This document shows, piece by piece, positions 10,692 through 26,662 of a stretch of DNA of 33,648 nucleotides; position 1 is the stretch's first letter, and the number at the start of each line of letters is the position of its first letter. This stretch comes from Motilibacter deserti (lineage in GTDB: Bacteria; Actinomycetota; Actinomycetes; Motilibacterales; Motilibacteraceae). The notes beneath the pieces were generated by a model that saw only the letters and a list, made by a program, of their open reading frames with translations, was not told where the DNA came from and did no database searches. The stretch covers positions 1 to 33,648 of the forward strand of contig NZ_JAANNP010000018.1 of the NCBI RefSeq assembly GCF_011250635.1. The letters run 5' to 3'. The translations under genes were made by a program, and so were the position numbers.

Positions 10692-11558
10692 TCAGACGAT
10701 CGGCGGGCGGCCCGCGCGCGTCATGCGCCAGGCCGTCGCCCAGTGCATCGGCCGCCGGTCGACGACCGGCTCGCGGAAGCCCTCGAGGTAGCCGCGCAGC
10801 ACCTCGCGCAGCTCTGGGAAGGAGCGCAGCCGCACGAGCGTGAGCAGCGACCACGTCCCGAGGTACGCGACGGCGAGCGGCGCGGGCAGGTTGCGCCGCG
10901 CGATCCACACCCGGTTGCGGACGCTGTAGCGGGTGAAGCCGGGATGGCGGCCGGGGCCGACGCGCGCCGAGTGGTAGGCGATGAGGTCGCCGTCGTAGCG
11001 GACGGAGAAGCCCGCGTCCCAGGTGCGCCAGGCGAAGTCGATGCCCTCGTGCATGTAGTAGAACGCCTCGGGCCATCCGCCGGAGCGGTCGAAGGCCTCG
11101 CGGCGGCACATGACCGCGCCCTCCCAGACGGCGCAGACATCGCTGCTGCGGTCCTCGTCCCCGACGCGCAGCCGCGGGATCCACCGCCGGGGCGTGGGCA
11201 GCCCGTCCGGGTCGACGGGGTGGAACTGCACCAGGCCGAGCCCGGGGTCGGCCTCGAACCGCGCGACCGCCTCGGCGAGCGTCCCGCTGTCGGGCAGGCT
11301 GGCGTCGTCGTCGAGGAACACGACGAGCTCGCCCTCGACCGCACGCCCGCCGGCGTTGCGCCCCGCGGGGATGCCGAGGTTGCGCGGCAGGGCCAGTGTG
11401 CGGACCTCGGGCGGGAGCCCGTCGGGCTCCCAGCCGTTGCCGACGACGAGGACGTCGAGGCGTACGCCGGTCTGGCGCAGCAGCGACTCCACGGCCTCCT
11501 TGAGCTCCAGCGGCCGCTTGCCCTGGGTGAGGACGACGCACCCGATCAGCGGGCCCAT
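10692..11558 (-). CDS. GT2-family glycosyltransferase
   Basis: The protein has 288 residues and a GT-A fold. It has a nucleotide-binding start (GPLIGCVVLTQGKRP), NLGIPAGRNAGG (about 60-71) and a metal-binding FLDDDA (about 81-86). An acceptor-side HEGIDFAWR follows GGWPEAFYYM. It resembles rhamnosyl- or galactofuranosyl-type GT2 enzymes, but sugar and acceptor cannot be read from sequence. It is cytoplasmic or membrane-associated. Its ATG overlaps the stop of the CDP-alcohol phosphotransferase gene as ATGA, and that gene overlaps the G1P-dehydrogenase-like gene, so all three form one minus-strand operon read from about 13400. It converges with the membrane-protein gene ending at 10635, with only 56 bp between and no strong terminator. 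Confidence 0.88.
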   Translation of the reverse strand: MGPLIGCVVLTQGKRPLELKEAVESLLRQTGVRLDVLVVGNGWEPDGLPPEVRTLALPRNLGIPAGRNAGGRAVEGELVVFLDDDASLPDSGTLAEAVARFEADPGLGLVQFHPVDPDGLPTPRRWIPRLRVGDEDRSSDVCAVWEGAVMCRREAFDRSGGWPEAFYYMHEGIDFAWRTWDAGFSVRYDGDLIAYHSARVGPGRHPGFTRYSVRNRVWIARRNLPAPLAVAYLGTWSLLTLVRLRSFPELREVLRGYLEGFREPVVDRRPMHWATAWRMTRAGRPPIV

Positions 11559-12331
11559 CACGCCGCCCGCAGCCGGGAGGAGCGCAGCACGCTCAGCAGG
11601 TGCCCCGCGGCGGTGAGCACGGCGAGCGGGCCGAGGACGGCGACGAGCACCCGGGTGCCGGGAATGCCGTCGGCGAACGCATCGACGAGCGCGGCGGCGA
11701 GCGCCAGGAAGCTCAGCTCCACGGCGATGAAGGCGCGGAAGAACGGCGCGAAGCGCAGCGCCCGGCGCAGCGAGAGCGAGCGGCCACGCAGCGTCGACCC
11801 CTTGTCCTCGAGGAGCGGGAGCCGGGCGTAGGCGCGCGCGACGTGCACCAGGTCCGTCTCGGACTTGTTGAGCAGCACGAGCACCGCGATCGCCAGTCCC
11901 CACATCGTCCAGCCGTCCAGCGACCCCCAGCCGCCGGCCGCCCGCACGCCCAGCGCCGCGGCCATCGCCGCCTCGGTGGTGTAGTGCCCGATGCGGTCGA
12001 GGTAGACGCCTGTGGCCGAGGAGATGCCGCGCCAGCGCGCGACCTCGCCGTCGCTGCAGTCGAAGAGCAGCTGGGACTGGATCAGCACGACGGCCGCGAG
12101 CGCGGCCCACACGCCGGGCAGCGTGAGCGCCAGTGCGGCCAGCCAGCCGCTGACGATCATCAGCCAGGTGACCTGGTCGGGCGTAATGCGGGTGACGACG
12201 AGCCGCTGGGTGACGTGCAGCGACACCCGGCGCATGTAGAGCCGGCCGGCCCAGTGCTCGGCGTTGACGCGGCCGACCAGCGACTCCGGCTGGCAGGTGG
12301 CGCGCAGCTCAGTCAGCGAAGGCGTCGACAA
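11558..12331 (-). CDS. CDP-alcohol phosphotransferase with a variant active site
   Basis: This integral membrane enzyme of 257 residues belongs to the CDP-alcohol phosphatidyltransferase family, which moves a phospho-alcohol from CDP-alcohol to a hydroxyl acceptor, making phosphodiester lipids. The family pattern DxxDGxxAR...GxxxDxxxD is present as D91, D94, G95, A98, R99, G108 and D112. The last Asp, the proposed catalytic base, is His116 (LDRIGHY). About six hydrophobic segments follow the usual layout. The TTG start at 12331 overlaps the upstream gene by 23 nt and keeps a conserved-looking N-terminus (SLTELRATCQP); the next candidate, Met33, would cut into it. It is co-transcribed with the G1P-dehydrogenase-like gene upstream and the GT2 downstream. 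Confidence 0.85.
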   Translation of the reverse strand: MSTPSLTELRATCQPESLVGRVNAEHWAGRLYMRRVSLHVTQRLVVTRITPDQVTWLMIVSGWLAALALTLPGVWAALAAVVLIQSQLLFDCSDGEVARWRGISSATGVYLDRIGHYTTEAAMAAALGVRAAGGWGSLDGWTMWGLAIAVLVLLNKSETDLVHVARAYARLPLLEDKGSTLRGRSLSLRRALRFAPFFRAFIAVELSFLALAAALVDAFADGIPGTRVLVAVLGPLAVLTAAGHLLSVLRSSRLRAA

Positions 12332-13376
12332 AGTCGGCGACCGCCTTCCGGATGTCGTCGCCGTCCATCGCCAGGTGCTCGAGGACGGTGTAGCGGTCCG
12401 GCCGCGTGGAGGGAGCGAGCTCGACCGCGCGGGCGAACCCCTCCTTGCTGATGCCGATATCGGACGGGACGCGCGGCAGGCCGTGCCGTCGGAAGCACGC
12501 GTCGACCTGCGCGGTGCGCGGGTCGTCGCGCAGGAACAGGGCGAACAGCGCGCCGAGCCCGGCCTGCTCGCCGTGCGTGCCCTCCCCGAGCTGTAGCTGG
12601 TCCAGGGCGTGGCTGATCTCGTGGCAGCCGCCGCTGCACGGCCGGCTGCTGCCCGCGAACGTCATCGCCAGCCCGCTGAGGACGAGCGACTCGGCCAGCG
12701 AGTGCAGGAAGCCCTCCGAGTCGAGCCCGCCGGGATGGTGCAGGACCGCTTCACCGGCGTTGCGGGCGAGCATGGCGGCCAGCCCGTCGACCTGCTCGCC
12801 GCGGACGTCGCGGGCGAGCTCCCAGTCGGCACAGGCCGACAGGTTGCTGACCGCCTCGCCGACGCCGGAGCGGCGCAGCCGCAGCGGGCTGCGCCGGACG
12901 TAGTCGAGGTCGACGACGACGGCGATGGGCATCTGCACGCCGATCGAGGCCTTGCGCCCGGCCTGCGAGAGCGACGCGACGGGGCTGGCGAGCCCGTCGT
13001 GGGCGAGGCTGGTGGCGACGGCGACCATCGGCAGGCCGGCCATCGTCGCGGCGTACTTCGCGACGTCGAGGGTGCGCCCGCCCCCGATGCCGACGAGGGC
13101 GTCGTAGGACGAGCCGCCCGAGGAGCGCCGGACCTGCTCGACCAGCCGCCACGCCTCGTCGACGGTGCCGTCGGTGACCACGAAGGTGTCGCAGGCCGAC
13201 AGCGTCGACTCGAGCGCGGCGGCGACCTCCTCGCCGATGCCGGGGCCGACTGCGACCGCGACGCGCCCGCCGGAGGAGATCCGGCGGTCGCTCAGCAGCG
13301 GGGCGAGGCCCGCCACGGCGCCGCTGCCGATGTCGACGCTGACCGGCGCCCCCAACATCCTGGCCAGAATCGGCAC
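12309..13376 (-). CDS. sn-glycerol-1-phosphate dehydrogenase-like (AraM/EgsA family)
   Basis: This soluble enzyme of 355 residues belongs to the iron/zinc-containing alcohol dehydrogenase fold, closest by motif to glycerol-1-phosphate dehydrogenases, which reduce dihydroxyacetone phosphate to sn-glycerol-1-phosphate. Visible motifs are the dinucleotide-binding VGIGGGRTLDVAK, TSLAHDGLASP (substrate side), the SGGCHEISHALD metal region and GTHGEQAGLG. The position that is usually a metal-binding Asp (GDxxSN) is Glu174 here (GVGEAVSN). Generic annotation would call it an iron-containing alcohol dehydrogenase; the HDGxxSP and SHALD motifs favour the G1P group. The GTG start at 13376 has GGAAGG upstream. 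It is the first gene of the operon with a CDP-alcohol phosphotransferase and GT2, which suggests supply of a polyol phosphate to them. Confidence 0.82.
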   Translation of the reverse strand: MPILARMLGAPVSVDIGSGAVAGLAPLLSDRRISSGGRVAVAVGPGIGEEVAAALESTLSACDTFVVTDGTVDEAWRLVEQVRRSSGGSSYDALVGIGGGRTLDVAKYAATMAGLPMVAVATSLAHDGLASPVASLSQAGRKASIGVQMPIAVVVDLDYVRRSPLRLRRSGVGEAVSNLSACADWELARDVRGEQVDGLAAMLARNAGEAVLHHPGGLDSEGFLHSLAESLVLSGLAMTFAGSSRPCSGGCHEISHALDQLQLGEGTHGEQAGLGALFALFLRDDPRTAQVDACFRRHGLPRVPSDIGISKEGFARAVELAPSTRPDRYTVLEHLAMDGDDIRKAVADFVDAFAD

Positions 13377-13413
13377 CCGGTCCCGCCTTCCGCTCTGCCC
13401 CTGGGCAGGGCCG

Positions 13414-13438
13414 ATACCGCGTGAGCTACAAATGAAAC
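13414..13438 (-). promoter_or_regulatory. Candidate SigB/SigH-type promoter for the G1P-dehydrogenase operon
   Basis: On the minus strand GTTT (13438-13435) and GGTAT (13418-13414) are separated by 16 nt. This resembles the GTTT-N14-18-GGGTA pattern of actinobacterial stress sigma factors. It lies 38 nt before the GTG start. A CTGCCC-ct-GGGCAG palindrome (13395-13408) sits just downstream, in the leader. Moderate to weak evidence. Confidence 0.3.
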
Positions 13439-13614
13439 AACGTCCGGTGGACCAGGGACGTCACCAGGGTTAACGCTAGGTTTCAGCGCGCAGTCTACCG
13501 GAGCGGGCACCCCCTCCCTCTAGGCTGCGACGGGCGGACGACGTACCCCGTCAGCCGCTTCCGAACCGTGCACGACGCGCTCCGGCCCCGGCCGGCCGAG
13601 GAGGCTCCCACCCG

Positions 13615-15276
13615 ATGTCGGTCAAGGTCAGCGTCGTGGTGCCCGTCTACAACCCGGGCAGCCACATCGACGACTGCATCCGGTCGCTGCTGGAGCAGTC
13701 GCTGCCGACCGACGAGTACGAGGCGATCTTCGTCGACGACGGGTCGACGGACGAGACGCCCGCACGCCTCGACGCCCTCGCGGCCGAGCACGACCACGTC
13801 CGGGTCTTCCACATCCCGAACTCCGGGTGGCCCGGCCGCCCGCGCAACGTCGGCATCGACAACGCGCGCGGGGAGTTCGTCTACTTCGTCGACAACGACG
13901 ACTGGCTGGGCCCGGAGGCGTTGGAGCGGCTCTACGCGTACGCCGTCGAGCACGGCTCCGACGTCGTCATCGGCAAGCTGGTCGGCCACCGACGCGGCAT
14001 TCCCAAAGAGATCTTCAGGCGTTCGAAGCCGAAGGCCGTCCTCGGCCAGGACCCGCTGCTCACGCTTCTGACGCCGCACAAGCTCTTCCGCAAGGCGATG
14101 CTCGACAAGCACGAGATCCGGTTCCCCGAAGGGCGGCGCCGGCTCGAGGACCACCTGTTCGTGATGAAGGCCTACTTCGCCGCGGACACCATCTCGATCC
14201 TCGCCGACTACCCCGTCTATCACTGGGTCCGGCGCGACGACGACACCAACGCCTCGGTCAACCGCTTCGACCCGAAGGGCTACTTCGACAACGTCCGGGA
14301 GGTCCTCGACGTCGTCGTGGCCAACACCGAGCCGGGCGACCTGCGCGACAAGCTGCTGGCGCACTGGTACACCGGCAAGTCGCTCGGCCGGCTCGGGGCG
14401 GGCACGCTGCTCGGCTACCCGCCGGACTACCGCCGTGAGCTCTACGACGCGATCCGCGGCCTCGCGCTCGAGCGCTTCGCGCCCTCGGTCGACCGGTTCC
14501 TCCCGCCCAGCTTCCGGCCGCGCTCGGTGCTGCTGCGGGCGGGCTCGCTCGCGGGCCTGGAGGCGCTCGCCGGCGCGGAGCGCGGGCTAACGATCGAGCC
14601 CACGACGTCCGAGGTCGCCTGGGACGGGGACGTGCTGCAGGTGAGGGCCTCGGCCCGGCTCGTGTACGCCGACGGCCGGCCTGTCGTGTTCGTACGCCGC
14701 GAGGGCCGGCTGCTCTGGGAGCTGCCCGTGCGCCTCGACGTGCCCGTACCCGACGACGCGCTCGACATGACCTCCGCGCTCGCCGCCGCACGCGCGGACG
14801 TGCTCGTGCGCTCCCGCGAGCTGCGCGACGACTACTTCGTCCCGGGGGCCTGGACGGCCTCCCTCGAGGAGATCGACGCCGACCGGGTCTCGCTCGTGGT
14901 CGCCGTCGAGGCGCGGCTTGACGCGCAGACGGCGGCCGCCGGAGCGCCCTTGGCCAAGGGGACCTGGGACGTCCTGGTGCGAGTCGCCGCCTGCGGCTGG
15001 GGCCCGGGGGCCCGGCTGAGCGCGGCGTCCGCGCCCGGGCTCGGCGCGCTCGAGGTCGGCGAGTCCGGGCCGGACCGGCGGCCGGTGTCGCCCTACTGGA
15101 CGGTCAACGGCAACCTCAGCATCGCGGTCGGCACCCGGCGTGCACCCGCCCCGCCCCCGCCGCCGTCCGCGCCGGCCCCCCGCCCGCTGCCGGCCCCTCC
15201 CGCCCGCGGGCGCGCAGCCTGGCTCCCCGCCCCGGTCCGGCGACGGCTGCGCGGGCTCGCGCGACGACTGGGCTGA
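13615..15276 (+). CDS. TarS/TarP-like GT2 glycosyltransferase with C-terminal domain
   Basis: The protein has 553 residues. The N-terminal GT-A domain (about 1-250) starts VKVSVVVPVYNPG and contains VDDGSTDET (40-48), GWPGRPRNVGIDNARGEF, the DND(D) metal motif (93-96) and FPEGRRRLEDHLF. The order GRxRN, DxDD, LTPHKLF and RRLEDH is that of the wall-teichoic-acid GlcNAc transferases TarS/TarP of Staphylococcus. After a helical region, a beta-rich domain (about 330-510) and a Pro-rich basic tail follow. A role in decorating a phosphate-containing wall polymer is inferred from this resemblance. The ATG has GAGGAGG upstream. A typical actinobacterial -10 (TAGGCT, 13521-13526) lies in the leader. 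The next gene starts 6 nt after the stop. A longer paralogue lies at 20276-22249. Confidence 0.85.
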   Translation: MSVKVSVVVPVYNPGSHIDDCIRSLLEQSLPTDEYEAIFVDDGSTDETPARLDALAAEHDHVRVFHIPNSGWPGRPRNVGIDNARGEFVYFVDNDDWLGPEALERLYAYAVEHGSDVVIGKLVGHRRGIPKEIFRRSKPKAVLGQDPLLTLLTPHKLFRKAMLDKHEIRFPEGRRRLEDHLFVMKAYFAADTISILADYPVYHWVRRDDDTNASVNRFDPKGYFDNVREVLDVVVANTEPGDLRDKLLAHWYTGKSLGRLGAGTLLGYPPDYRRELYDAIRGLALERFAPSVDRFLPPSFRPRSVLLRAGSLAGLEALAGAERGLTIEPTTSEVAWDGDVLQVRASARLVYADGRPVVFVRREGRLLWELPVRLDVPVPDDALDMTSALAAARADVLVRSRELRDDYFVPGAWTASLEEIDADRVSLVVAVEARLDAQTAAAGAPLAKGTWDVLVRVAACGWGPGARLSAASAPGLGALEVGESGPDRRPVSPYWTVNGNLSIAVGTRRAPAPPPPPSAPAPRPLPAPPARGRAAWLPAPVRRRLRGLARRLG

Positions 15277-15282
15277 CCTCCC

Positions 15283-15711
15283 GTGGACGGCGGCCTGCAG
15301 CGCGCGGTGTGGGAGCCGCTGCGCGCGCTACGCCGCCGGGTCGCGGGCCCACGGGCGGACCGCGACCGGGTCGACCTGCTGCGCGGCCTGCCGGGCCTCG
15401 GCTGTCTCCCCGATGCCGAGCTCGAACGGCTCGCCCTGCTCCTGCAGCCGCACGTGGTGCACGGCGGCGAGGACGTGATCCGGCAGGGCGAGCCCGGCAG
15501 CGCGTACTGGATCGTGTCCGAGGGCGCGGTCGACGTGCTGATCGACGGCGAGGTCGTGTCCACGCTCGGCCCGGGCTGGGGGTTCGGCGACCTCGCGCTG
15601 CGTGGCGGCATCCCGCGCAGCGCGACCGTGACCGCCCACGGGCCGGCGACGCTCTACGCCCTCGACGGCGAGCACTACCTCGCCGCGCTCGGGGAGGACG
15701 CGCAGGGCTGA
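15283..15711 (+). CDS. Stand-alone cyclic-nucleotide-binding domain protein
   Basis: The protein has 142 residues: about 30 basic residues followed by one cNMP-binding beta-roll (about 30-138). Motifs are VIRQGEPGSAYWIVSEGAVDV and the phosphate-binding cassette FGDLALRGGIPRSATV (101-116), with Arg112 as the cyclic-phosphate ligand. The cassette Glu that contacts the ribose is Asp103. There is no helix-turn-helix, kinase, channel or other output domain, so it cannot be a CRP-type regulator by itself. The GTG starts 6 nt after the glycosyltransferase stop, so the two are almost certainly co-transcribed. It may act as a ligand-responsive partner of that enzyme, but this is inference. Confidence 0.85.
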   Translation: MDGGLQRAVWEPLRALRRRVAGPRADRDRVDLLRGLPGLGCLPDAELERLALLLQPHVVHGGEDVIRQGEPGSAYWIVSEGAVDVLIDGEVVSTLGPGWGFGDLALRGGIPRSATVTAHGPATLYALDGEHYLAALGEDAQG

Positions 15712-15739
15712 CGCCGCCGACGGCACGGACCGACGACTG

Positions 15740-15861: not shown

Positions 15862-15957
15862 TGCCCCGCAAAAGCGCGCATTCGGTCTGGACCGGCGCAC
15901 AGCGGTCGGTCCAGGGTGTGGGACGACGCCCAGACCGCCTTCGTCGAGGAGCCGGAT

Positions 15958-18900
15958 TTGCCGTACTCGTCGTCCCCTTCCCTCCCGTTGTCGCGGCTTC
16001 GAGACCGTGTCCGGGCAACAGCCCTCGTGGCGGCGGTCGTGACCGCGCTCGCCGCACCGCTCGTCGGCCCGGGCGCCGCGCCGGCCTCCGCCGCAGCCGC
16101 CCCGCCCGACGTCCTCCCCACACCGCAGGAGCTCACCGCCCACGGGGCCGGCGTCGACCTCGAAGGCACCATCACCGTCGTCACGGGACCGGGCACGGAC
16201 GCCGCCGCCCTGCGTGTCGTGCGGAACGTGCTCGCCGCCGCGGGCGCGGTCGACGTGGACGTCGTCGACGACGTGGCGGCCGCTGCGGACGGCGGCCCCG
16301 TCGTCTTCGTCGACGGGACGAGCGACGTTCCCGGTGCCGCGGAGGCCCTGGCCGCGCTCGGTGCGCAAGGAGCGTCAGGCCTTCCCGCCGAGGGCTACGT
16401 TCTCGCCGCCGGGCGCGTGTCGAAGCGCGAGCTCGTCGTGCTCGACGGCGCCGACGCGGCCGGCGCGTTCTATGCCGCGCAGACCCTGCGCCAGCTCGTG
16501 CGCCGCCACGGCAGCCACGCCACCGTCGACGGCGTGGTCGTCCGCGACTGGCCGGAGCTGCCGCTGCGCGGGGTGATCGAGGGGTTCTACGGCACGCCGT
16601 GGTCGCACGCGGCGCGCAAGGACCAGCTCGCGTTCTACGGCCGGCACAAGATGAACATCTACGTGTACTCCCCGAAGGACGACCCCTACCTCCGGGAGCA
16701 GTGGCGGGCGCCCTACCCCGCGCCACAGCTCGCCGACATCAGCGACCTGGTGCGGACCGCCGCTGACAACCACGTCGCGTTCACCTACGCGCTCTCTCCC
16801 GGGCTGTCGATCTGCTACAGCTCCGAGTCGGACGTGCAGGCATTGATCGCGAAGTTCCAAACGCTCTACGACATCGGTATGCGCGACTTCGCGGTCCCGC
16901 TCGACGACATCAGCTACACGACGTGGAACTGCCCTGCGGACCAGGCCCGCTTCGGCACCGGCGGCGGCGCGGCCGGAGCGGCCCAGGCGTACGTGCTCAA
17001 CCGCGTGCAGCGCGAGTTCATCGAGACGCACGCCGGGGCCACGCCCCTGCAGATGGTGCCGACCGAGTACTACGACCAGGCCGAGACGCCCTACAAGGCC
17101 GCGCTGCGCACGCAGCTCGACAGCGACGTCATCGTGGAGTGGACGGGCCAGGGCGTCGTGCCGGGCACGATCACGACCGCGCAGGCCCAGCAGGCGAAGG
17201 CGGTGTTCGGCCACCCGGTCCTCGTCTGGGACAACTACCCGGTCAACGACTACGCGACCGACCGGCTGCTGCTGGCTCCCTACACCGGGCGTGAGGCGGG
17301 CATCGCCGGCTCGATCCTCGGCATCACCTCGAACCCGATGATCCAGCCGTACGCGTCGAAGACCTCGGTCGCCGGTGTCGGCGACTTCACCTGGAACCCC
17401 GACGCCTACGACCCGGAGCAGTCGTGGGCCGCAGCGCTGGACGAGCTCGCCGGGCCTGACGCGGACGTGCGAGAAGCACTGCGCGTGTTCGGAGACCTGA
17501 ATTGGACCTCCGTCCTCGACACCCGGCAGGCCCCGGTGCTCGCGCCGCGGCTGCAGGAGTTCTGGACCGCGTGGGAGCGCGGTGACTCCTCCGCCGCGGC
17601 CGCGGCCGAGCGCCTGCTCGACACCGTGGCCGAGGCTCCGGCCACGCTCCGCGCCGGGATGGCCGACCGCGGGTTCGTGCAGGACGCGGCACCGTGGCTG
17701 ACGGCGGCCGAGCTGTGGGGACGGGCCGACCTTGCCGCCCTGCAGATGCTCGTCGAGCTGCGCAACGGCCGGGTCGAGCGGTCGATCGAGTCCCGGCAGC
17801 GGGCACTCGACCTGGCCGCGCAGGCCGCCGCGGTCGTCTACCAGGGGCTCGGCGGCACCGTGCGCGTCCACGTCGGCGACGGCGTGCTCGACACGTTCGT
17901 CCAGCAGGCCGTGGCCGAGCACGACCGCGCCCTCGCCCTGCGGGCGGTCCGGCCGAGCGTCTCGACCAACCTGCCGACCTATCAGAGCTACGTCCCGGCC
18001 AACATGGCCGACGGCAACCCGGACACGTGGTTCTGGAGCAGCCGGGCGGTCGCGAACGGCGACTACGTCGGGGTCGACCTCGGGTCCGTCCGCGAGGTGT
18101 CCGGCGTCACCGTGCTCATGGCGAAGGCGACGAGCCCGCGCGACTTCATCCAGAACGGCGTGCTCGAGTACTCGGTCAACGGCACGACGTGGACGCCCGT
18201 GCGGACTCTCGTCGACACCGCCGAGGCCACCGCGACGCTGCCCGCCGGGACGAGCGCGCGCTACGTCCGGGTGCGCGCGACCGCCGCGCAGTCCGAGTGG
18301 CTCGTGGTCCGCGAGCTGACGGTCACGAGCGCGACCCCGACCTCGCCCACGGTCACCTCCGGCCCCGCGCCGGCGGCAGGCTCCTCCCTCGGCGCCGCGG
18401 CGGACGGCGACCTCACGACGGCGTACGCGGCGGCGGGCTCGGCGAAGGGCGCGGCCCCGCTCGTGGTGACGCTGCCCGCCGCCCGGCCGCTGTCCCGCGT
18501 CGGTGTGGTCGCGGACGCCGCGGCGACGGTCGAGGTCCGCAGCAACGGGGCCTGGCGGGCCGTCGGCAGCCTGTCGCGCGGCTACACCGAGCTCCCCGTC
18601 GGTGGCCCGGCGGTCGACGCCCTGCGCCTGGTGTGGGGCTCCACCTCCCGGCCGCCCGTCGTGACCGAGGTCCTGCCGTGGTACGCCGACGTCCCCGCCG
18701 TCGCGCTCGCCGGGCCGGCGGACGAGGTGGCGTTCGAGACGGGGTCGACCGCGACGGTGCCGGTATCGGTCACGTCCACCACCCCGGCTGCCGTGGCCGG
18801 CACGCTCTCGGCGGCCGCCCCCGCCGGCCTCACGGTCACACCGGCGAGCAGCGCCCTGACCGTGCCGCGCGGGGCGTCCGCCACGGTGGCGCTGACAATC

Positions 18901-19467: not shown

Positions 19468-20205
19468 TCAGCCCCGGCCGAAGGACCGGGCGAGTGCGTC
19501 GGCCAGCTCGGCGGCGCCCTCGTCGGGCGTGGCGCCCCGCTCACGCAGCCTGCGCAGCACGTCCCAGACGGGGGCGGCGAGCACTCGCTCGGGCTCGACC
19601 GCGGCGTCACGGGCCAGGATCTCCGCCGGCACCTCGCGGACCATCACGTGCTGCTCCACGATGGAGGAGTACGCGTCGGCGAGCGTCGTGTCGCCCGGAT
19701 CGAGGCCCAGCACGAGCAGCAGCCCGGTCGGCCGCGTGTCGACCGGCACGACGGTCAGGCCGGGACGGTGCTCGGCGAGGACGGGCAGCAGCTTCCAGAC
19801 GTCGCCGGTCCACGCCTTGCCCACCGGCGTGCGCTGCGCCTCGGCGGCGTTGCGCGGCAGCACGTCGTCGAGGATCACCGCGGACCAGGGCGTGGACAGC
19901 GCCTCGGCGTGCAGGAAGTCGCGGAGCACGACCTCGAACAGGTGCAGCCCGTCGAGGAAGGCGAGGTCGTACGGCCGTCCCGCCGTCGGTGCGAGCGGCT
20001 CCGGACGGGCGAAGTACTCATCGCTGGTGGTGCGCAGCAGCGCGAGGTCGCCGTCGAGCTCGACGTCGATCGCGAACGCCGGGTCGACGCCCACGCTGCG
20101 CGCGCGGGACAGCGCCAGGCTGCGGCCGTCGCGCACGCCGACCTCGAGGTAGGTCGCGGGCCGGAGGCGGTCGTGGACCCCCCGGAGGAACTCCGTGTAG
20201 AACAT
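19468..20205 (-). CDS. Class I SAM methyltransferase-like protein (copy 1)
   Basis: The protein has 245 residues. Motif I is LEVGVRDGRSLALSR, the following acidic position is in VGVDPAF, and RTTSDEYFARP, DLAFLDGLHLFE and ILDDVLPR complete a Methyltransf_24-like fold. The C-terminal third (WTGDVWKLLPVL, TRPTGLLLVLGLDP) is shared with the copy at 22373-23209; the two look roughly half identical by eye. The substrate is unknown; such enzymes in glycan clusters O-methylate sugars. The ATG at 20205 has AAAGGA 4 nt upstream. It diverges from the TarS/TarP-like GT2 with 70 bp between start codons, so both promoters share that gap. Confidence 0.8.
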   Translation of the reverse strand: MFYTEFLRGVHDRLRPATYLEVGVRDGRSLALSRARSVGVDPAFAIDVELDGDLALLRTTSDEYFARPEPLAPTAGRPYDLAFLDGLHLFEVVLRDFLHAEALSTPWSAVILDDVLPRNAAEAQRTPVGKAWTGDVWKLLPVLAEHRPGLTVVPVDTRPTGLLLVLGLDPGDTTLADAYSSIVEQHVMVREVPAEILARDAAVEPERVLAAPVWDVLRRLRERGATPDEGAAELADALARSFGRG

Positions 20206-20275
20206 GATGTCCTTTCCGCGGCTGCGCCCGACCCTACCCAGCGGGCGCCCGGAGGCCCGGCGAAGGGACGCGTAC

Positions 20276-22249
20276 GTGGCGGTCAAGGTCAGCGTCGTGG
20301 TGCCGGTGCACAACCCGGGCGACCGGATCCTGCGCGTCATGAGATCGCTCGACCGGCAGACGCTGCCGGCCGACGAGTTCGAGGCGATCCTCGTCGACGA
20401 CGGGTCGACCGACGGGACCGCCGAGCGGCTCGGACGCATCGCGGCGCACCGGCCGTACGTCCGGCTCGCCCGGCTCGAGGGGTCGGGGTGGCCCAGCTGG
20501 CCGCGCAACCTCGGGATCGAGCTGGCCAGTGGCGAGTACGTGCTCTTCATGGACCACGACGACGAGCTCGGCGACGACGCGCTGCGCCGCGCGTACGACT
20601 ACGCGGTGGCGAACGGCTCGGACGTCGTGATCGGCAAGGAGGTGGCCGTCGGGCGCTCCGCCCTGGACTCGCGGATGTTCCGGCACAACGTCGCCCGCGC
20701 GTCGATCCTCGAGCACCGGCTGCTCGACCTGCTCACGGTGCACCGGCTCTTCCGCCGGGAGTTCCTCCTCGCGCACCGCATCCGCTTCCCCGAGCGCGTC
20801 GGCCTGCTCGAGGACCACCCCTTCGCCCTCAAGAGCTTCCTCGAGGCCGACGTGGTCTCGATCCTCGCGGACTACCCGGTCTACAAGTGGATCGTCTCGG
20901 ACGAGAACAACTCGCGCCAGACCCCGCAGACCGAGACCTACTTCGCCAACATCCGCGAGTGCCTGGACCTGGTGGAGTCGCACACGTCGCCGGGCCCGGA
21001 GCGCGACGCCATGATGCTGCGCTGGCTGCAGGGCTCGGTGGCCGGCAGCATCGGGCCGCGCATGCTGACCCGACCCGAGGGCCACTGGCGCGAGTGGGTC
21101 GACGCCGTACGGACGATTCTGGAAGAGCGCTTCCCCCGTCGGCTCGACGAGCTGGCCGCGCCCATGCACCGGCTGCGGCTCGCCGTCGGCCGGGCCGGGG
21201 ACCTCGACGCCGTGCTCGCGCTCGCGCGCTTCGAGCAGGGCAGCGCGGTGCGGGCCGAGGCGTCGTCGTACGTGTGGGTGGACGGCGCCCTGCAGGTGCG
21301 CGCCCGCGGCGTCCTGCTCGACGCGTCCGGCGCACCGATGGCGTTCGAGCGCGCCGGCGAGCGCGTGGTCCGGCGCCTTCCCGCAGAGCTCGCGGCGTAC
21401 GCCCCCGACGGGCTGCTCGACGTGACGTCCGCCGTCGAGGCCGCCGCCGCCGAGCTCAAGCTGCGCCACCGTGACAGCCGGGTGGAGTGGTACGTCCCCG
21501 GCACGTCGAGCGCACGCCTGGAGCAGGTGGACGGGCGGCTCGCGCTCGTGGCCGAGTGCACGTCGGAGGTCGACCCCGCGGTCGCGGCCCTGGGCGCCCC
21601 GCTCGAGCCGGGGGTGTGGGACGTCGTCTTCTGGATGCAGGCGCTGGGCTACGACCTACGCCCTCGGCTGGCCGCCGCCCCGGCCCGCCCCGCGCCGGCG
21701 CTCGTCGACGGCGAGCAGCTGGTGGCGTACCGGACCAAGGACGGGAGGCTCGCGCTCGACGTCGGCGCGACCGTGCGCACGCTCGTGGGGTCCGCCCGCC
21801 CCACGCCCGACGACGCGACGGTGCGGCCCGGGCCGGACGGCTCGCTGCTGAGGCTCGCGCTGCCGCGGGTGCACGTGCGCGGGCAGGCGTCGGTCCCGGG
21901 CGGCCTGGCGCTGGAGGCGGCGATCCTCGAGGGCTCGGTCGAGCTGCCGGCCCGGCTCGTCGCCGACGCGGGCGACGCGCGGGTCGAGGCCTACGTCACC
22001 GCCCTGGCCGGGCGCTACGGGCTGCGCGCCACGTTCGGCGAGGGGCCGACGACGCAGCCGTTCCTCGATCTCGAGGCGGCGGACGACGGGACGTACGCGC
22101 TGGTGCCCGTCGCTTCGCCGGACGCGAAGCCCGCCGCGGTGGGAGCCGCGCTCGCGCAGCGTCCGGCACCGCAGGCGATCCCCGTCGGGCGGCGGCCGGT
22201 GCTGGGCGGCCCTGTCCTCAGGCGGGTGCGCCGGCTGGGCGGGAGGTGA
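20276..22249 (+). CDS. TarS/TarP-like GT2 glycosyltransferase, longer paralogue
   Basis: The protein has 657 residues. It starts VAVKVSVVVPVHNPG, almost the same as the glycosyltransferase at 13615, and keeps VDDGSTDGT, GWPSWPRNLGIELASGEY, the MDHDDE metal motif and LLEDHPF in the same order. The C-terminal part is about 100 residues longer, with two beta-rich segments (about 330-480 and 480-640) and a basic end (RRVRRLGGR), suggesting peripheral membrane or polymer binding. The GTG at 20276 aligns with the paralogue start and has AAGGGA 8 nt upstream; an upstream in-frame ATG would overlap the divergent gene start. Terminators follow at 22257-22281 and beyond. The sugar donor is not known; GlcNAc is suggested by TarS/TarP resemblance and the nearby GH84 enzyme. 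Confidence 0.85.
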   Translation: MAVKVSVVVPVHNPGDRILRVMRSLDRQTLPADEFEAILVDDGSTDGTAERLGRIAAHRPYVRLARLEGSGWPSWPRNLGIELASGEYVLFMDHDDELGDDALRRAYDYAVANGSDVVIGKEVAVGRSALDSRMFRHNVARASILEHRLLDLLTVHRLFRREFLLAHRIRFPERVGLLEDHPFALKSFLEADVVSILADYPVYKWIVSDENNSRQTPQTETYFANIRECLDLVESHTSPGPERDAMMLRWLQGSVAGSIGPRMLTRPEGHWREWVDAVRTILEERFPRRLDELAAPMHRLRLAVGRAGDLDAVLALARFEQGSAVRAEASSYVWVDGALQVRARGVLLDASGAPMAFERAGERVVRRLPAELAAYAPDGLLDVTSAVEAAAAELKLRHRDSRVEWYVPGTSSARLEQVDGRLALVAECTSEVDPAVAALGAPLEPGVWDVVFWMQALGYDLRPRLAAAPARPAPALVDGEQLVAYRTKDGRLALDVGATVRTLVGSARPTPDDATVRPGPDGSLLRLALPRVHVRGQASVPGGLALEAAILEGSVELPARLVADAGDARVEAYVTALAGRYGLRATFGEGPTTQPFLDLEAADDGTYALVPVASPDAKPAAVGAALAQRPAPQAIPVGRRPVLGGPVLRRVRRLGGR

Positions 22250-22256
22250 GGCTGCG

Positions 22257-22281: not shown

Positions 22282-22307
22282 GGGCTCACGCCTGGATCCG
22301 CGCAGTT

Positions 22308-22340: not shown

Positions 22341-22372
22341 GACCCCGACGCCACACCTGACGACGACCGCCG

Positions 22373-23209
22373 TCAGCGCGAGCGCAGCGCCTTGACCTGG
22401 CGCAGGCCCTGCTTGACCGTCCGGGTGGCCGTACGCCGCAGCTCGCGCCGCCGCGCGCGGTAGATCGTCGGGCGCTCGAGCGCCTCGGTCATCTCGACCC
22501 GCGCCCGCTCGCGGGAGACCCACGGCCGGCGGGACCGTCGCAGGGAGCCCCAGACCGGCGAGCGGAGCAGCTTCTCCGGCGCGAGTGCGCCCTCGCGGTT
22601 GAGGATCGCGGGCGGCACGTCCTGCGGGTCGTCCACGACGTACTTCTCGACGATCTCGTCGTAGTGGTCGGTGAGGACCGTGTTGTCGGGGTCGAGCCCG
22701 GTCACGAGCAGCAGCCCCGTGGGGCCGGTGTCGACGAGCAGGAGCGTCAGGTCGGGACGGTACTGCCGCAGCACCTCGACGATCTTGTAGACGTCGCCGG
22801 TCCAGACGCGGGTGTGGCGGTCACGGGCCGCCTCGTCGACCTTGCGCGGGAAGATGTCGTCGAAGACCACGACGCTGCTCGGGCTCGAGCAGCGCTCGAC
22901 GTTGATGAAGTCGCGCAGCGCGAACTCGAACAGGTGCATGCCGTCGATGAACGCGAGGTCCGCGGGCGCCCCGTGGAAGGGCGCGAGCGGGTCCGGACGG
23001 GAGAAGTACTCATCGCTCGTCGTCTTGAACAGCGCGACGTCGCACGTGATGGGGCACTTGATGGCGAAGTCGGGGTCGATGCCGATCGACTTCGACCGCG
23101 ACAGCGCGAGGCTGTCACCGGCGCGGACTCCGACCTCGAGGTACGTCGCCGGCCGCAGCGCCTCGTGCAACCGCCCGAGGAACTCCAGGTAGGGCATCTG
23201 GCCGGCCAC
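22373..23209 (-). CDS. Class I SAM methyltransferase-like protein (copy 2)
   Basis: The protein has 278 residues and is a paralogue of the protein at 19468-20205. It shares LRPATYLEVGVRAGDSLALSR, KTTSDEYFSRPDPLAP, DLAFIDGMHLFE, VVFDDIFPR, WTGDVYK and DTGPTGLLLVTGLDPD. It has a longer, very basic C-terminal tail (RRRELRRTATRTVKQGLRQ) absent from copy 1, which could bind membrane lipid or polymer. The GTG at 23209 has GGGAGG 4 nt upstream, the same short spacing as in copy 1; ATG 23197 would be too far from it. It is probably monocistronic: its own promoter lies in 23210-23258, and it ends at the convergent terminators. The substrate is unknown. Confidence 0.8.
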   Translation of the reverse strand: MAGQMPYLEFLGRLHEALRPATYLEVGVRAGDSLALSRSKSIGIDPDFAIKCPITCDVALFKTTSDEYFSRPDPLAPFHGAPADLAFIDGMHLFEFALRDFINVERCSSPSSVVVFDDIFPRKVDEAARDRHTRVWTGDVYKIVEVLRQYRPDLTLLLVDTGPTGLLLVTGLDPDNTVLTDHYDEIVEKYVVDDPQDVPPAILNREGALAPEKLLRSPVWGSLRRSRRPWVSRERARVEMTEALERPTIYRARRRELRRTATRTVKQGLRQVKALRSR

Positions 23210-23258
23210 GAGGCCTCCCGCATATCGATGGTGCTGGCTGTGTTCGCGTGCAAGGAAA

Positions 23259-23275
23259 CGGCCGCAGAACGGCCG
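23259..23275 (-). terminator. Candidate terminator of the 26662-23359 operon
   Basis: CGGCCG-5 nt-CGGCCG forms a 6-bp stem, followed on the minus strand by GTTTCCTTG, a short T-rich run. It lies 84 nt past the stop of the nucleotidyltransferase gene. Confidence 0.45.
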
Positions 23276-23358
23276 GGAAACGTGCCGCGACGCTAACCCG
23301 CGCCCCGCTACGGCAGCAAGGCGGCGCGCGTCAACGCCCTGTTACTACGGACGCCGCC

Positions 23359-24099
23359 TCAGCGGGCGGGCCACCGGGCCGCGATCGACTTCGCCCGCGC
23401 GTAGTCCTCGGGCGAGTCGACCTCGACCCAGTCGACCTTCCCGATGGGGGCGGTCCGAACCTCGCCGCCGCGGTCCACCAGCTCCTGGAACCCGTCCTCG
23501 TAGTACAGCCCCGGGTCGCGCTTCCACGTCGTCTCGAGCGCGTCGGCGAGCGCACCCGCCACGGCCGGCTCGATCACCGTGACGCCGATGTACTCCCCGT
23601 GCGCGCTCTCGGCCGGCATGAGCTTGGTGATCCGCTCGAGCCGCCCGTCGGCGGCGAGGACGACCTTCATCTCCTCCTCGCCGAGCTTCTTCTCGGTGTC
23701 CGTGGCGAGCAGCAGCTGCGGCCCGCGCGCGGCGAGCACCCGCTCCTCGACCACCGGCGGGTGGACGGTGTCGCCGTTCACCAGCAGCACGCCCTGCTCG
23801 AACTGCTCCCGAGCGACCCAGAGGGAGTAGCAGTTGTTCCACTCGAGGGCCTTCTCGTTGAAGATCAGCCGCAGCTTCAGGCCGTGGCGCTCCTCCAGCC
23901 GGGGCACCTGCTCCTCGATGCGCTCCGCCGCGTAGCCCGTGACGACCGCGACCTCGTCCAGGCCGGCCGCGCGCAGGTTCGCGAGCGTCGAGTCCAGGAT
24001 CGACTGCCCGTCACGCACCTCGAGCAGCGTCTTCGGCAGCTTGGCCGTCAGCTCACCCAGCCGGCTTCCCCAGCCCGCCGCGAGTACCAGCCCGATCAT
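23359..24099 (-). CDS. LicC-like nucleotidyltransferase (CDP-alcohol or sugar nucleotide synthesis)
   Basis: This cytoplasmic enzyme of 246 residues has the signature LAAGWGSRLGELTAKLPKTL (6-25) and VTGYAAE. NEKALEWNNCYSLW resembles the NNIYSL region of LicC phosphocholine cytidylyltransferases, and VNGDTVHP is the metal-binding site. The C-terminal EYIGVTVIEP, LYYEDGFQELVDRG and KVDWVEVDSPEDYARAK complete the LicC-type layout. It would activate a phospho-alcohol or sugar phosphate with CTP or another NTP. The ATG overlaps the upstream membrane-protein stop as ATGA, and that gene overlaps the fused CDP-alcohol phosphotransferase in the same way. It is therefore the likely source of the CDP-alcohol used by that enzyme; phosphocholine, polyol phosphate and inositol phosphate are all possible substrates. 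Confidence 0.87.
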   Translation of the reverse strand: MIGLVLAAGWGSRLGELTAKLPKTLLEVRDGQSILDSTLANLRAAGLDEVAVVTGYAAERIEEQVPRLEERHGLKLRLIFNEKALEWNNCYSLWVAREQFEQGVLLVNGDTVHPPVVEERVLAARGPQLLLATDTEKKLGEEEMKVVLAADGRLERITKLMPAESAHGEYIGVTVIEPAVAGALADALETTWKRDPGLYYEDGFQELVDRGGEVRTAPIGKVDWVEVDSPEDYARAKSIAARWPAR

Positions 24100-24767
24100 G
24101 CGTCTCCCTCGTCGTGCTCTCCGGACCCCTCGGCCGCGGTGGACCCCTCGCGGGCAGCGGCTCGTGCCGTACGCGCGTCCCGGCCCTCGCGGTTCGGGCG
24201 CAGCCAGCCTGCGGTGCTCTCCCCGACGTACAGCACGCCCAGGACCGCCGCCGCGACCGCAGCCCCCATACCCAGCCCGCCGACCCCGACGAGCAGGCAG
24301 GCCAGCAGCAGCCGGACGTCCCAGCCGCCGCCGGCGAGCCGCAGCCACGTCGGCGGGGCGACGCGGCGGTGCCGCAGCCGGTAGACCGTGTCGTAGTGGT
24401 GGAAGGCGAGCGCCGCGAGCAGCGCGTAGGCCGCGGGCTGCGCCGCCGGGTCCACCACCGCGACGACCCGGGCGAGCGTGAAGTACTCCACCGCCCGCAG
24501 GAGCGGCGGGATCACCCAGTCCAGCTTCGACACGTGCGAGCGCCCGGCGGCCGCTCCGGCGGTGAGGACGTACCAAGCGACCGCGACCGGGAGCGGCCAG
24601 CCGTCGACGGCGCCGCGGTCGAGCAGGACGAGGACGAGCGGCAGCGCGCCGGCCAGCGTGAGCAGCACCGGCGCGGCAGGCGCGGACGCGAGCGGGCCGC
24701 GGGCCGCGCGGGCCAGCGCGCCGGTGATCGCTCCGTCGTCGCGGTAGGAGTCGAGGACGCTGCTCAT
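24096..24767 (-). CDS. DUF5941-like multi-span membrane protein
   Basis: The protein has 223 residues and about five hydrophobic segments (VLLTLAGALPLVLVLL, PVAVAWYVLTAGAAAG, AAYALLAALAFHHYD, LLLACLLVGVGGLGMGAA). A conserved-looking cytoplasmic stretch, SHVSKLDWVIPPLLRAVEYFTL, is followed by HHYDTVYRLRHR. The C-terminus is charged. From memory this matches the DUF5941 type of actinobacterial proteins that occur next to or fused with CDP-alcohol phosphotransferases; a profile search is needed to confirm it. Both ends overlap neighbours as ATGA, so it is the middle gene of a tightly coupled trio and probably forms a complex with them. The function is not known. Confidence 0.72.
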   Translation of the reverse strand: MSSVLDSYRDDGAITGALARAARGPLASAPAAPVLLTLAGALPLVLVLLDRGAVDGWPLPVAVAWYVLTAGAAAGRSHVSKLDWVIPPLLRAVEYFTLARVVAVVDPAAQPAAYALLAALAFHHYDTVYRLRHRRVAPPTWLRLAGGGWDVRLLLACLLVGVGGLGMGAAVAAAVLGVLYVGESTAGWLRPNREGRDARTARAAAREGSTAAEGSGEHDEGDA

Positions 24768-26662
24768 CGGGCCACCGACCGGAGGATCTTGCCGAGGGTG
24801 CTGTACGCGGCGGCGAGCCCGCCCCACCACAGCAGCGCCAGGAAGGTGACGCGTGGGGTCCAGAAAGCCGCGGTGACCGAGATCAGCGCGAAGCGCTCGC
24901 CGATCGGCAGCACGAAGATCTTCTTCGCCCAGCGTGCCGCCTTGGCACGCTCGGTCCGTCGCGACAGCCGGACGGCCGCCTTGCCGACGCGGACGTGCAG
25001 CGGCAGTGCGGGCCGCTCGGGCTCGAGGGCCGCGTCGTGCTCCGCCTCCGCGGCGACGTCACCCGCCGGCACCGCGGGCGAGGGCGTGGCAGGCAGCGGC
25101 GCGGGCGGCCCGGAGACCGCGACCGGCGCGCCTACGGCGGCGGCGACAGGCACGTCGTCGGGGTCCACGACACCGCGCGCCGCCGCCGACTCGGTCGGGT
25201 CGACCGGGTCGTCCGGGCCGGCAGGCGCCTCGTCGGGGGCGACGAGCACGTCGGCGCTCTGCGCGAGCGGGAGGCGCGGAGCCTGCGCGATCGCCTGGTG
25301 CGCGCCCGCGGCGTACGAGAAGTCCACCGCGTGCCGCACGGTCTGCAGTGTGATGGCGGCGCAGGCCAGCGCCCACACGTCGTCGTCCCACCCGCGCGAG
25401 GCGCCGAGGGCCAGGCCGACGAAGACGAGGTACTCCTTGCCGCGGTCGAAGACGGAGTCGAGCCAGGCGCCGAGCGAGGAGAACTGCCGGGTGTAGCGCG
25501 CGAGCTGGCCGTCGACGCAGTCGAAGGTGAACGCCAGCTGGAGCAGCACGGCGCCGGCGACCATCCCCCACCGCTCTCCGGTCGCGAAGGCCGCGGCCGC
25601 GAGCGCCCCGAGGGCCATCGAGAAGGTCGTCACCGCATTGGGGGTCAGCCCGAGGCGGGCGGTCCAGCGCGCGATGTAGCGGGAGTAGGGGCTGACGAAG
25701 AAGGTGGTGAAGAAGCCGTCCGAGCCCTTCACCGCCGCGGCCAGCATCAGCCGCTCCTCGTCGTAGCCGGGCAGCGCCTCGGCCGCCGCCTGCGCCGCCG
25801 CGGCGTCGAGCGGGCGCGCCCAGAAGAAGCCGCGCAGCGCGCTGTTGGCGATCTGCACCCCGGACCGGACCAGGCCGACCAGGCAGAGCGAGGCCGCGTC
25901 CTCGCGCAGCGCCCGGGCCCGGCGGGCGAGCTCCGCGCCGGCCTCCGCGCTGATCGGGGCCTCGGCCGGGCCCTCCTCCGTCGGCGGCAGGCCGAGCTCG
26001 GCGGCCGCCCGACGGGCGAGGATCTGGTGCCACCGCTCGGTGCGGGCGGTGAGGGTCTCCTCCCACTCCGGCGGCGGCGCCGCCGCCAGCGTCGCCAGCT
26101 CGGCGGTGGACGCCGCGAGCGCGGCGAGATCGTCCGGGTGCACCTTCAGCACGCCGAGGAAGCGGCTCGTCGGCTGGCGGGTGGAGTGGAACGGCGAGGC
26201 CGCGCTGACCAACCGGCCGCGGACGGACCGGGTACGCGGCGCCCACGGCCGCGCGAGCGCGCCCCCGCCGGACAGCACGCCGGTGCGTACGCGCGGGTCG
26301 GCGAGCAGGCCGGCGAGCGAGTCGCGCTGCAGCACGACGTCGCCGAGGGCGAGGAGCAGCGCGTCGTCCCGCTCGGTCGCGAGCGCGCTCACCGTCCGCA
26401 GGTCGGCGGCGAGGTCCTCGGACGCGAGGACGCGGACGTCGGCGAGCCCGTGCACCGCGGAGACGCAGCCGGCCTCCCAGCCGGGCCGGGTGATGACGTG
26501 CACCGGCCGCGCCTGCAGCGAGGCCAGCTGCTCGACCAGCCGGCGCAGCACCGTGGCGCTGCCGAGCGGGAGCAGGGCGGCCGCGCCGCCGTCGTCGGTG
26601 GGCGCGGTCGCGAACACGACGGCCCCGACGGGGGCCGACACCCGTCCACCCGCCGCTGCCAC
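24764..26662 (-). CDS. Fusion of a degenerate nucleotidyltransferase domain and a CDP-alcohol phosphotransferase
   Basis: The protein has 632 residues. The N-terminal part (about 10-230) has the secondary-structure order of an NTP transferase (VVFATAPTDDGG in place of LAAGxGxR; LGDVV at about 106-110) but lacks the glycine-rich nucleotide loop and its Arg, so it is probably not catalytic. The C-terminal membrane domain (about 310-625) has KGSDGFFTTFFVSPYSRYIA and the full signature D381, D384, G385, A388, R389, G398, D402 and D406. A Pro/Ala/Val/Asp-rich insert (about 465-555) splits the last helices. The order resembles the inositol-phosphate cytidylyltransferase/DIPP-synthase fusions of archaea and Thermotoga. 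The GTG start at 26662 has GGAAGGG upstream. It is the first gene of the operon with the DUF5941-like and LicC-like proteins. Confidence 0.85.
   Translation of the reverse strand: MAAAGGRVSAPVGAVVFATAPTDDGGAAALLPLGSATVLRRLVEQLASLQARPVHVITRPGWEAGCVSAVHGLADVRVLASEDLAADLRTVSALATERDDALLLALGDVVLQRDSLAGLLADPRVRTGVLSGGGALARPWAPRTRSVRGRLVSAASPFHSTRQPTSRFLGVLKVHPDDLAALAASTAELATLAAAPPPEWEETLTARTERWHQILARRAAAELGLPPTEEGPAEAPISAEAGAELARRARALREDAASLCLVGLVRSGVQIANSALRGFFWARPLDAAAAQAAAEALPGYDEERLMLAAAVKGSDGFFTTFFVSPYSRYIARWTARLGLTPNAVTTFSMALGALAAAAFATGERWGMVAGAVLLQLAFTFDCVDGQLARYTRQFSSLGAWLDSVFDRGKEYLVFVGLALGASRGWDDDVWALACAAITLQTVRHAVDFSYAAGAHQAIAQAPRLPLAQSADVLVAPDEAPAGPDDPVDPTESAAARGVVDPDDVPVAAAVGAPVAVSGPPAPLPATPSPAVPAGDVAAEAEHDAALEPERPALPLHVRVGKAAVRLSRRTERAKAARWAKKIFVLPIGERFALISVTAAFWTPRVTFLALLWWGGLAAAYSTLGKILRSVAR

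Follow-up and report, generated by a model that had tools for sequence, protein, structure and literature searches.

We analysed a stretch of 33,648 nucleotides (the window; G + C content 73.8%), which is contig C195 of the Motilibacter deserti assembly GCF_011250635.1 (5.0 Mb in 269 contigs). Genomes, loci and contigs are labelled G, L and C with a number, and the window's own genome is G000. A first-pass annotation, made from the sequence alone, had described some 16 kb of the window as one uncharacterised envelope locus, and the genes that it named were all confirmed as open reading frames with coding-like codon use, whose domains were identified by Pfam and NCBIfam searches. The present study concerns mainly six of them, which surround a dehydrogenase resembling sn-glycerol-1-phosphate dehydrogenase (G1PDH):

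24764-26662, minus strand: CdpB, a CDP-alcohol phosphotransferase with a long N-terminal extension (PF01066), first gene of half-operon 1
24096-24767, minus strand: DUF5941 membrane protein (PF19365, 117 bits)
23359-24099, minus strand: NTP, a LicC-like nucleotidyltransferase (PF12804/PF00483)
12309-13376, minus strand: G1PDH-like dehydrogenase of the Fe-ADH_2 type (PF13685), first gene of half-operon 2
11558-12331, minus strand: CdpA, a second CDP-alcohol-transferase-like protein (PF01066)
10692-11561, minus strand: GT2a, glycosyltransferase family 2 (GT2; PF00535), last gene of the conserved operon

These genes form two tight triplets, CdpB–DUF5941–NTP (26662 down to 23359, with 4-bp overlaps) and G1PDH–CdpA–GT2a (13376 down to 10692, with overlaps of 23 bp and 4 bp), which are separated by a block of about 10 kb. 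The G1PDH alignment was scanned against genome contigs, giving at least 586 confirmed stretches, the best 80 of which serve as named loci; they are the nearest relatives, and many come from few families. The order CdpB–DUF5941–NTP–G1PDH–CdpA–GT2a was found without the block in several loci (L046, L069, L071, L085 and L088, and also L013 and L015), and the two triplets of the window therefore represent one operon cut between NTP and G1PDH. The neighbourhood comparison thus bore out the positional link drawn by the first-pass annotation, as the homologues co-occur in other genomes beyond chance. NTP lay within 500 bp of G1PDH in all 80 named loci, and a CDP-alcohol transferase did so in 75 of them (the exceptions being L018, L021, L022, L040 and L061). 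Within 10 kb of G1PDH in the same loci were GT2a (29), DUF5941 (28) and CdpB (11), together with an ABC-2 exporter pair (22), LCP (22), GDPD (24) and IspD-like genes (24); these 10-kb counts are lower bounds because some loci are short.

Variants of the operon were also observed. CdpB and DUF5941 are a single fused protein in L014, L016, L022 and L032, and the annotated order in Streptomyces fungicidicus is DUF5941 protein, phosphocholine cytidylyltransferase family, iron-containing alcohol dehydrogenase, CDP-alcohol phosphatidyltransferase, glycosyltransferase, ABC permease and ABC ATPase. G142 carries the operon split into the same two triplets as the window, in another order and with 15.4 kb between NTP and G1PDH; TarS-like proteins, an ABC pair and a Bac_transf gene lie between or beside its triplets, and a weak PF04464 protein (24.5 bits) overlaps NTP. 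The order in G042 is NTP–SpoIID-like–G1PDH–CDP-alcohol phosphotransferase (CDP-AP)–WecG/TagA, with TagA overlapping the CDP-AP gene, and that in G081 is ABC pair–NTP–G1PDH–CdpA–GT2a, without CdpB.

The block that interrupts the operon in the window comprises the following genes, of which the second had been omitted by the first-pass annotation:

13615-15276, plus strand: TarS1, GT2 with TarS_linker (PF22181, 115 bits; PDB 8bz4, 192 bits, and 5tze, which we take to be S. aureus TarS, 160 bits)
15283-15711, plus strand: cyclic-nucleotide-binding domain protein (PF00027)
15916-19413, plus strand: GH84-type beta-N-acetylglucosaminidase (NAGidase), probably secreted (PF07555, 391 bits)
19468-20340, minus strand: MT1, Methyltransf_24 protein (PF13578, 26.4 bits against a cut-off of 26.3)
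20204-22249, plus strand: TarS2, GT2 with TarS_linker, a paralogue of TarS1 (PF22181, 85 bits)
22373-23209, minus strand: MT2, Methyltransf_24 protein (PF13578)

TarS1 and TarS2 share 43-44% identity and MT1 and MT2 share 54%, which makes two paralogue pairs. The longest open reading frames of MT1 and TarS2 overlap at their starts; comparison with their own paralogues suggests later starts for both, and by alignment to MT2 the true start of MT1 is probably about 45 codons further in. The N-terminus of the GH84 protein is hydrophobic and, judged by eye, signal-peptide-like. In tblastn searches (E 1e-10) over the loci collected, homologues of the block methyltransferases were found in one locus only, the operon locus L050 (54% identical to MT2), and TarS-like matches in L014, L111, L098, L099 and the own-genome locus L126, while the GH84 and cyclic-nucleotide-binding genes had no homologue there. 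The conserved unit excludes the block, which does not recur; the block-free operons and the non-recurring block genes rule out conservation of the entire 16 kb as a single unit, the form in which the locus had first been drawn.

The dehydrogenase scored 231.7 bits with the NCBIfam model NF002022 and 61.6 bits with the glycerol dehydrogenase model; since the former score does not reach the equivalog cut-off of 413, the protein is named G1PDH-like. In a PDB profile search the best relatives were 3ce9 (214 bits), the M. jannaschii G1PDH (208 bits), 5fb3 (177 bits) and 9h4x (B. subtilis AraM, 115 bits), and other glycerol dehydrogenases reached at most 72 bits as against 177-208 for the archaeal G1PDHs. 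The predicted model (predicted local distance difference test 91.7) gave Z scores of 42.2 to 3ce9, 40.3 to the M. jannaschii G1PDH, 39.2 to 5fb3 and 37.1 to 9h4x, and at most 35.9 to other glycerol dehydrogenases, a gap that is clear in sequence and small in Z. By profile and by model the enzyme is thus closer to G1PDHs (EgsA/AraM) than to most glycerol dehydrogenases, in keeping with the first-pass call of an sn-glycerol-1-phosphate-type enzyme, with 3ce9, deposited as a glycerol dehydrogenase, as the exception; its identity as a general alcohol or glycerol dehydrogenase is disfavoured by the NCBIfam, PDB-profile and model scores. The motifs HDG..SP, SRPCSGxxHE..HA.D and HGE are present, and the enzyme is proposed to convert dihydroxyacetone phosphate (DHAP) to sn-glycerol-1-phosphate (G1P), a stereospecific activity that is predicted.

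Two contig-end pieces of G000, C165:8-565 and C140:2-457, cover residues 1-190 and 204-353 and probably represent a second G1PDH-like gene of the window's genome. Oriented divergently from the C165 piece is the gene of a PF04464 protein (54 bits), after which come a PM0188 sialyltransferase-type gene and a GT2 gene. G1PDH homologues were also matched on plasmids of Nitratidesulfovibrio and Cytobacillus (seven matches, with H1, H2 and the Nitratidesulfovibrio duplicates H5 and H6 left out), where an incomplete gene table listed neither an NTP nor a CDP-AP by product name within 12-15 kb.

For NTP, the family profile placed the CTP:phosphocholine cytidylyltransferase 1jyk best of 39 PDB matches (69 bits), followed by 4jd0 and 6pd1. 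The latter two are titled merely nucleotidyl transferase in the match list, and we take their roles to be those of an inositol-1-phosphate enzyme and of PntC, respectively. NTP is proposed as a CTP:sn-glycerol-1-phosphate cytidylyltransferase, with its substrate predicted. The PF01066 domain of CdpB, at residues 340-438, has a complete motif (DCVDGQLAR..G..LD...D) with the last Asp kept, and AF2299 was the best PDB relative of the CdpB family profile; the layout of AF2299 suggested that the N-terminus of CdpB might contain a degenerate NTP domain, an idea that was unsupported (hhalign probability 2.2). The predicted CdpA model (80.6 on the same confidence scale) was closest to AF2299 (4o6n; Z 18.1, root-mean-square deviation 3.1 over 210 residues), with IPCT-DIPPS (Z 16.5) and PIP synthases (Z about 15) next. 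In the motif D1xxD2G1xxAR...G2xxxD3xxxD4 of CdpA, D4 is His, and the protein is therefore called CDP-AP-like; of the 78 clustered homologues that come from other loci, 34 carry His at this position, 43 Asp and 1 Ala. Of the two CDP-alcohol phosphotransferases first annotated, CdpB was upheld by its motif, and CdpA by its fold and not by its motif. A passage of PMC4634129 describes the donor pocket of AF2299 as holding the glycerol of CDP-glycerol and the last motif Asp as the likely base.

The co-occurrence of these genes was examined in a draw of 246 genomes of the phylum, with G1PDH counted at 200 bits or more and NTP at E ≤1e-20. The G1PDH search matched 47 genomes, of which 30 were counted; G214 (160 bits) and 16 genomes with matches of 78-112 bits, probably other Fe-ADH or dehydroquinate-synthase-like proteins, were excluded, the 200-bit limits for G1PDH and PF04464 having been set after the tables were viewed. 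NTP was found in 34 genomes, namely in 29 of the 30 with G1PDH and in 5 of the 216 without it (Fisher p 2e-31, uncorrected for kinship), and it lay within 500 bp upstream of G1PDH on the same strand in 25 of the 30. The five exceptions were G000 (10.0 kb), G042 (3.3 kb), G142 (at the distance given above), G093 (different contigs) and G254 (no NTP).

The same genomes were searched for teichoic-acid enzymes, PF04464 representing the TagB/TagF/TarF type (strong above 200 bits) and TIGR01518 over its cut-off representing TagD. Strong PF04464 was present in 16 of the 246 genomes, that is, in 11 of the 30 with G1PDH as against 5 of the 216 without it (p 4e-8, likewise uncorrected). TagD was over the cut-off in six genomes, none of them with G1PDH, and its best match in G000 was 43.5 bits against a cut-off of 165.4. 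The 16 strong-PF04464 genomes thus divide into 11 that have G1PDH and NTP without TagD over the cut-off, three that have TagD without G1PDH, and two with neither, G119 (which has a 132-bit TagD-like match) and G208. In a set of 40 relatives, which shares G000 and G022 with the former draw, strong PF04464 occurred in all six strong-G1PDH genomes (G000, G010, G012, G020, G022 and G039) and in 3 of the 34 others (G002, G003 and G032); none of the 14 relatives tested, which represented all four groups with G022 left out, had TagD over the cut-off.

A further comparison covered 81 genomes of one actinobacterial order, that of G155, in which the 17 G1PDH genomes are all at E ≤1e-40. Strong PF04464 was found in 10 of these 17 and in 1 of the 64 without G1PDH, in an order picked after the G155 island had been seen and with G155 in both draws; without G155, the counts are 9 of 16 and 1 of 64. 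G1PDH and PF04464 are 50-861 bp apart in five of the ten (G155, G283, G301, G342 and G345; four of nine without G155), and in the others they lie 6.9 kb (G352) or 101 kb (G303) apart or on other contigs (G295, G297 and G343). In the G155 island GDPD, the PF04464 protein, NTP and G1PDH stand side by side. The best NCBIfam match of this PF04464 protein was TarF (268 bits, as against 77 for TarL), and that of the G000 protein at C269:33587-34636, which matches PF04464 with 326 bits and is 59% identical to it, was also TarF (251 bits, as against 65 for TarL), neither score reaching the TarF cut-off of 550. On C222 of G000 (L125), an ABC pair and a GT2 gene are like those beside the operon in G010. 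This ABC-2 exporter pair and the glycosyltransferases stand near genes of the DegT aminotransferase, hexapeptide transferase and Gfo/Idh types, a set that resembles genes for diamino-uronate sugars.

CDP-glycerol is the one small molecule on which these enzymes converge: a dehydrogenase of the glycerol-phosphate type, a transferase of the CTP:alcohol-phosphate type, and two transferase families (AF2299-like and PF04464) that are unrelated to each other and can both use it. Since cells already contain glycerol-3-phosphate (G3P), the best reason for a dedicated G1PDH would be a need for the sn-1 form. We therefore consider it rather probable that the operon provides a TagD-independent donor route, in which G1PDH and NTP make CDP-(sn-1)-glycerol for a teichoic-acid-like glycopolymer. 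In the proposed pathway, G1PDH would reduce DHAP to G1P, and the LicC-like NTP would join G1P and cytidine triphosphate (CTP) to give CDP-(sn-1)-glycerol, from which glycerophosphotransferases would transfer glycerol-1-phosphate to a lipid-linked surface glycan. In operons of the window's type this transfer would fall to two AF2299-like membrane proteins, CdpB (together with DUF5941) and CdpA, and in other genomes to TarF/TagF-type PF04464 enzymes. GT2a would add a sugar, an ABC-2 exporter would export the polymer and LCP enzymes would anchor it, and the TarS1/2, methyltransferases and GH84 enzyme of the block would decorate or trim it. A decorating role for TarS1 and TarS2 fits what an excerpt of PMC13274773 says of the TarS-like UtrC of S. 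griseus: its predicted function is to join ribitol teichoic acid and a teichuronic-acid-like chain, and mutation of its active site abolishes toxin sensitivity. Use of the sn-1 donor by TagF-like capsule polymerases in vitro is described in a passage of PMC5974469, which terms it a non-natural substrate. The activated polyol-phosphate pathway suggested in the first-pass annotation is thereby supported; as to its product, a phosphodiester-containing envelope polymer remains likely, and the glycolipid is now less likely than a teichoic-acid-like glycopolymer, because the module adjoins TarF/TagF-type transferases, TagA, ABC-2 exporters and LCP ligases elsewhere. More tentatively, many actinobacteria may build wall (and perhaps lipo-) teichoic acids from sn-glycerol-1-phosphate of the archaeal handedness, which the G1PDH and LicC-like pair, replacing TagD, would supply as CDP-(sn-1)-glycerol.

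Several findings weigh against the proposed donor route. What was observed is gene content, homology, order and co-occurrence, whereas substrates, handedness, step order and polymer are predicted. Kinship makes the co-occurrence counts interdependent, a single family contributing 7 of the 11 G1PDH genomes with strong PF04464, and the order of G155 was chosen with its island in view. G001-G004 of the window's family are without G1PDH, PF04464 is distant from the operon in genomes of family f19, and the pairing of G1PDH with NTP and CDP-AP is not universal, because the plasmid homologues show neither partner by name. Weak TIGR01518 matches (34-66 bits) occur in 9 of the 30 G1PDH genomes, a model that also matches 12 of 14 control genomes, over the cut-off in two. 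The dehydrogenase has Glu at position 174, presumably a ligand position, where 17 of 20 aligned rows carry Asp, and the motif of CdpA is incomplete. Strong PF04464 is missing from 19 of the 30 G1PDH genomes, and there CDP-AP would have to be the user of the donor.

This last point, together with the adjacency of CDP-AP to G1PDH (75 of the 80 named loci), which is more general than that of PF04464, and the hopanoid genes that come after the operon in S. fungicidicus, would suit a different use of the same donor, namely that CDP-(sn-1)-glycerol serves solely the membrane CDP-alcohol transferases in making a small phosphoglycolipid or lipid anchor, with the PF04464 neighbours reflecting general clustering of envelope genes. 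We regard this as unlikely, given that G1PDH and PF04464 are less than 1 kb apart in five genomes of another order and that the operon of some genomes has genes for ABC-2 exporters, LCP ligases, TagA and Bac_transf in its vicinity. An archaeal-type ether lipid, as made through AraM and PcrB in Bacillus, would likewise account for a G1PDH-like enzyme, and it is allowed in some Streptomyces because, according to a section of PMC6431249, GGGPS and DGGGPS accompany G1PDH there. It is nevertheless very improbable here: a PF01884 search found no PcrB match in G000, as the first-pass annotation had said of this locus, and the matches in the 246 genomes were confined to 35-73 positions in 46 genomes, six of them over the family cut-off and none in the family-f19 genomes; moreover, the pairing of NTP with CDP-AP is foreign to the AraM/PcrB route.

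It is also conceivable that G1P plays no part, the dehydrogenase reducing another ketose phosphate or NTP using another alcohol phosphate, so that a teichoic acid would be built from another CDP-polyol or from G3P-derived CDP-glycerol. The sub-cut-off score of the dehydrogenase and the deposition of its top PDB relative as a glycerol dehydrogenase speak for this, as does an IspD and SDR fusion that adjoins the operon in L015 and could make CDP-ribitol. NTP-like genes (66-82 bits) furthermore adjoin PF04464 without G1PDH in G184 and in G002 and G003 of the window's family, and because of these the LicC-like enzyme need not use G1P. In G002 (C4:254715-256557) and G003 (C12:113392-115200) a TarF/TagF-type gene stands directly beside the LicC-like gene; the LicC-like enzymes of G002, G003 and G184 may convert G3P to ordinary CDP-glycerol or may make a different donor, and the pairs in G002 and G003 perhaps represent a variant of the proposed route that starts from G3P. 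On the other side, the solved G1PDHs beat all other glycerol dehydrogenases by sequence and by model, the PF04464 proteins of G155 and of C269 in G000 fit TarF, a glycerol-phosphate transferase, rather than TarL, and AF2299 binds CDP-glycerol (an extract of PMC4634129). With G3P as the substrate, a dedicated G1PDH beside NTP would be unneeded. A route without G1P is accordingly judged quite unlikely.

Some features of the window lie apart from these questions. An ARAGORN tRNA-Pro call at 11870-11959 (minus strand) is inside the CdpA gene and probably false. Positions 7479-9716 (plus strand) encode a fusion protein in which a phytochrome-type part (PAS_2-GAF-PHY) is combined with a SpoIIE phosphatase domain. 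Three loci of Nocardiopsis (L044, L066 and L072) have similar genes at a distance of about 8-10 kb from the operon. Positions 27390-29633 (plus strand) encode an EAL-DICT-PAS-GGDEF protein, which thus combines the two types of cyclic-di-GMP domain, with EAL ahead of GGDEF.

The glycerol phosphate of CDP-glycerol is assumed to be the sn-3 form. In B. subtilis the wall teichoic acid is sn-3 and the lipoteichoic acid sn-1, mirror images because CDP-glycerol carries the sn-3 form (part of PMC7086022, which also describes GlpQ as an enzyme that cleaves sn-3 polymers of glycerol phosphate), and a dedicated G1P donor route would break this rule and give bacterial G1PDHs a job beyond ether lipids. If the proposed route is true, it would represent a second, so far unrecognised way to teichoic-acid-like wall material, in which an actinobacterial wall polymer gets the handedness otherwise seen in lipoteichoic acid. 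Excerpts of PMC3196553 report that the lipo- and wall teichoic acids of S. hygroscopicus are very similar and that the actinobacterial genomes known in 2011 were without clear LtaS orthologues; the route could explain such similar backbones without a clear LtaS. It would open two questions to simple gene deletions, namely how TagD-less actinobacteria make glycerol-containing teichoic acids and how they make lipoteichoic acid in the absence of a clear LtaS, and would give DUF5941 and an unusual CDP-alcohol-transferase subfamily their first functional context. Actinobacterial G1PDHs have already been placed in the EgsA/AraM tree (portions of PMC5059525 and PMC6431249). Searches of the open-licence PMC literature turned up no paper proposing that bacteria naturally use CDP-(sn-1)-glycerol as a donor, and none on DUF5941 or glycerol-1-phosphate cytidylyltransferase, which is not proof of absence.

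Among known systems, AF2299 and IPCT-DIPPS of Archaeoglobus share with the present operon the CDP-alcohol transferase fold and a small soluble CDP-alcohol donor (CDP-glycerol for AF2299). DIPPS has an osmolyte role. These proteins are archaeal and stand in another context, whereas ours belong to an envelope-type actinobacterial operon, with a CdpA that is without the last Asp. As in the AraM/PcrB ether lipid of B. subtilis, G1PDH would make G1P in a bacterium; unlike there, no PcrB was matched in the own genome, and G1P would enter a CTP-dependent activation. A Streptomyces region whose synteny was listed in 2026 with tagG, tagH, araM, CDP-alcohol transferase, GT2 and nucleotidyltransferase genes (PMC13118837, in part), and which also includes crtB, corresponds by gene names to the S. 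fungicidicus operon, although the teichoic-acid association there comes from gene names, and the portion concerned gives no pathway or product. The TagD-TagB/TagF (TarD/B/F) pathway of wall teichoic acid in Bacillota is similar in that a cytidylyltransferase makes CDP-glycerol that is used by glycerophosphotransferases, and in that some genomes have TagA-, TagGH- and LCP-like partners close to the module. The route proposed here differs from it in that no TagD is over the cut-off and its place would be taken by a LicC-like enzyme together with a G1PDH-like enzyme of its own, in the participation of membrane CDP-alcohol transferases, and in the implied use of an sn-1 rather than an sn-3 donor.

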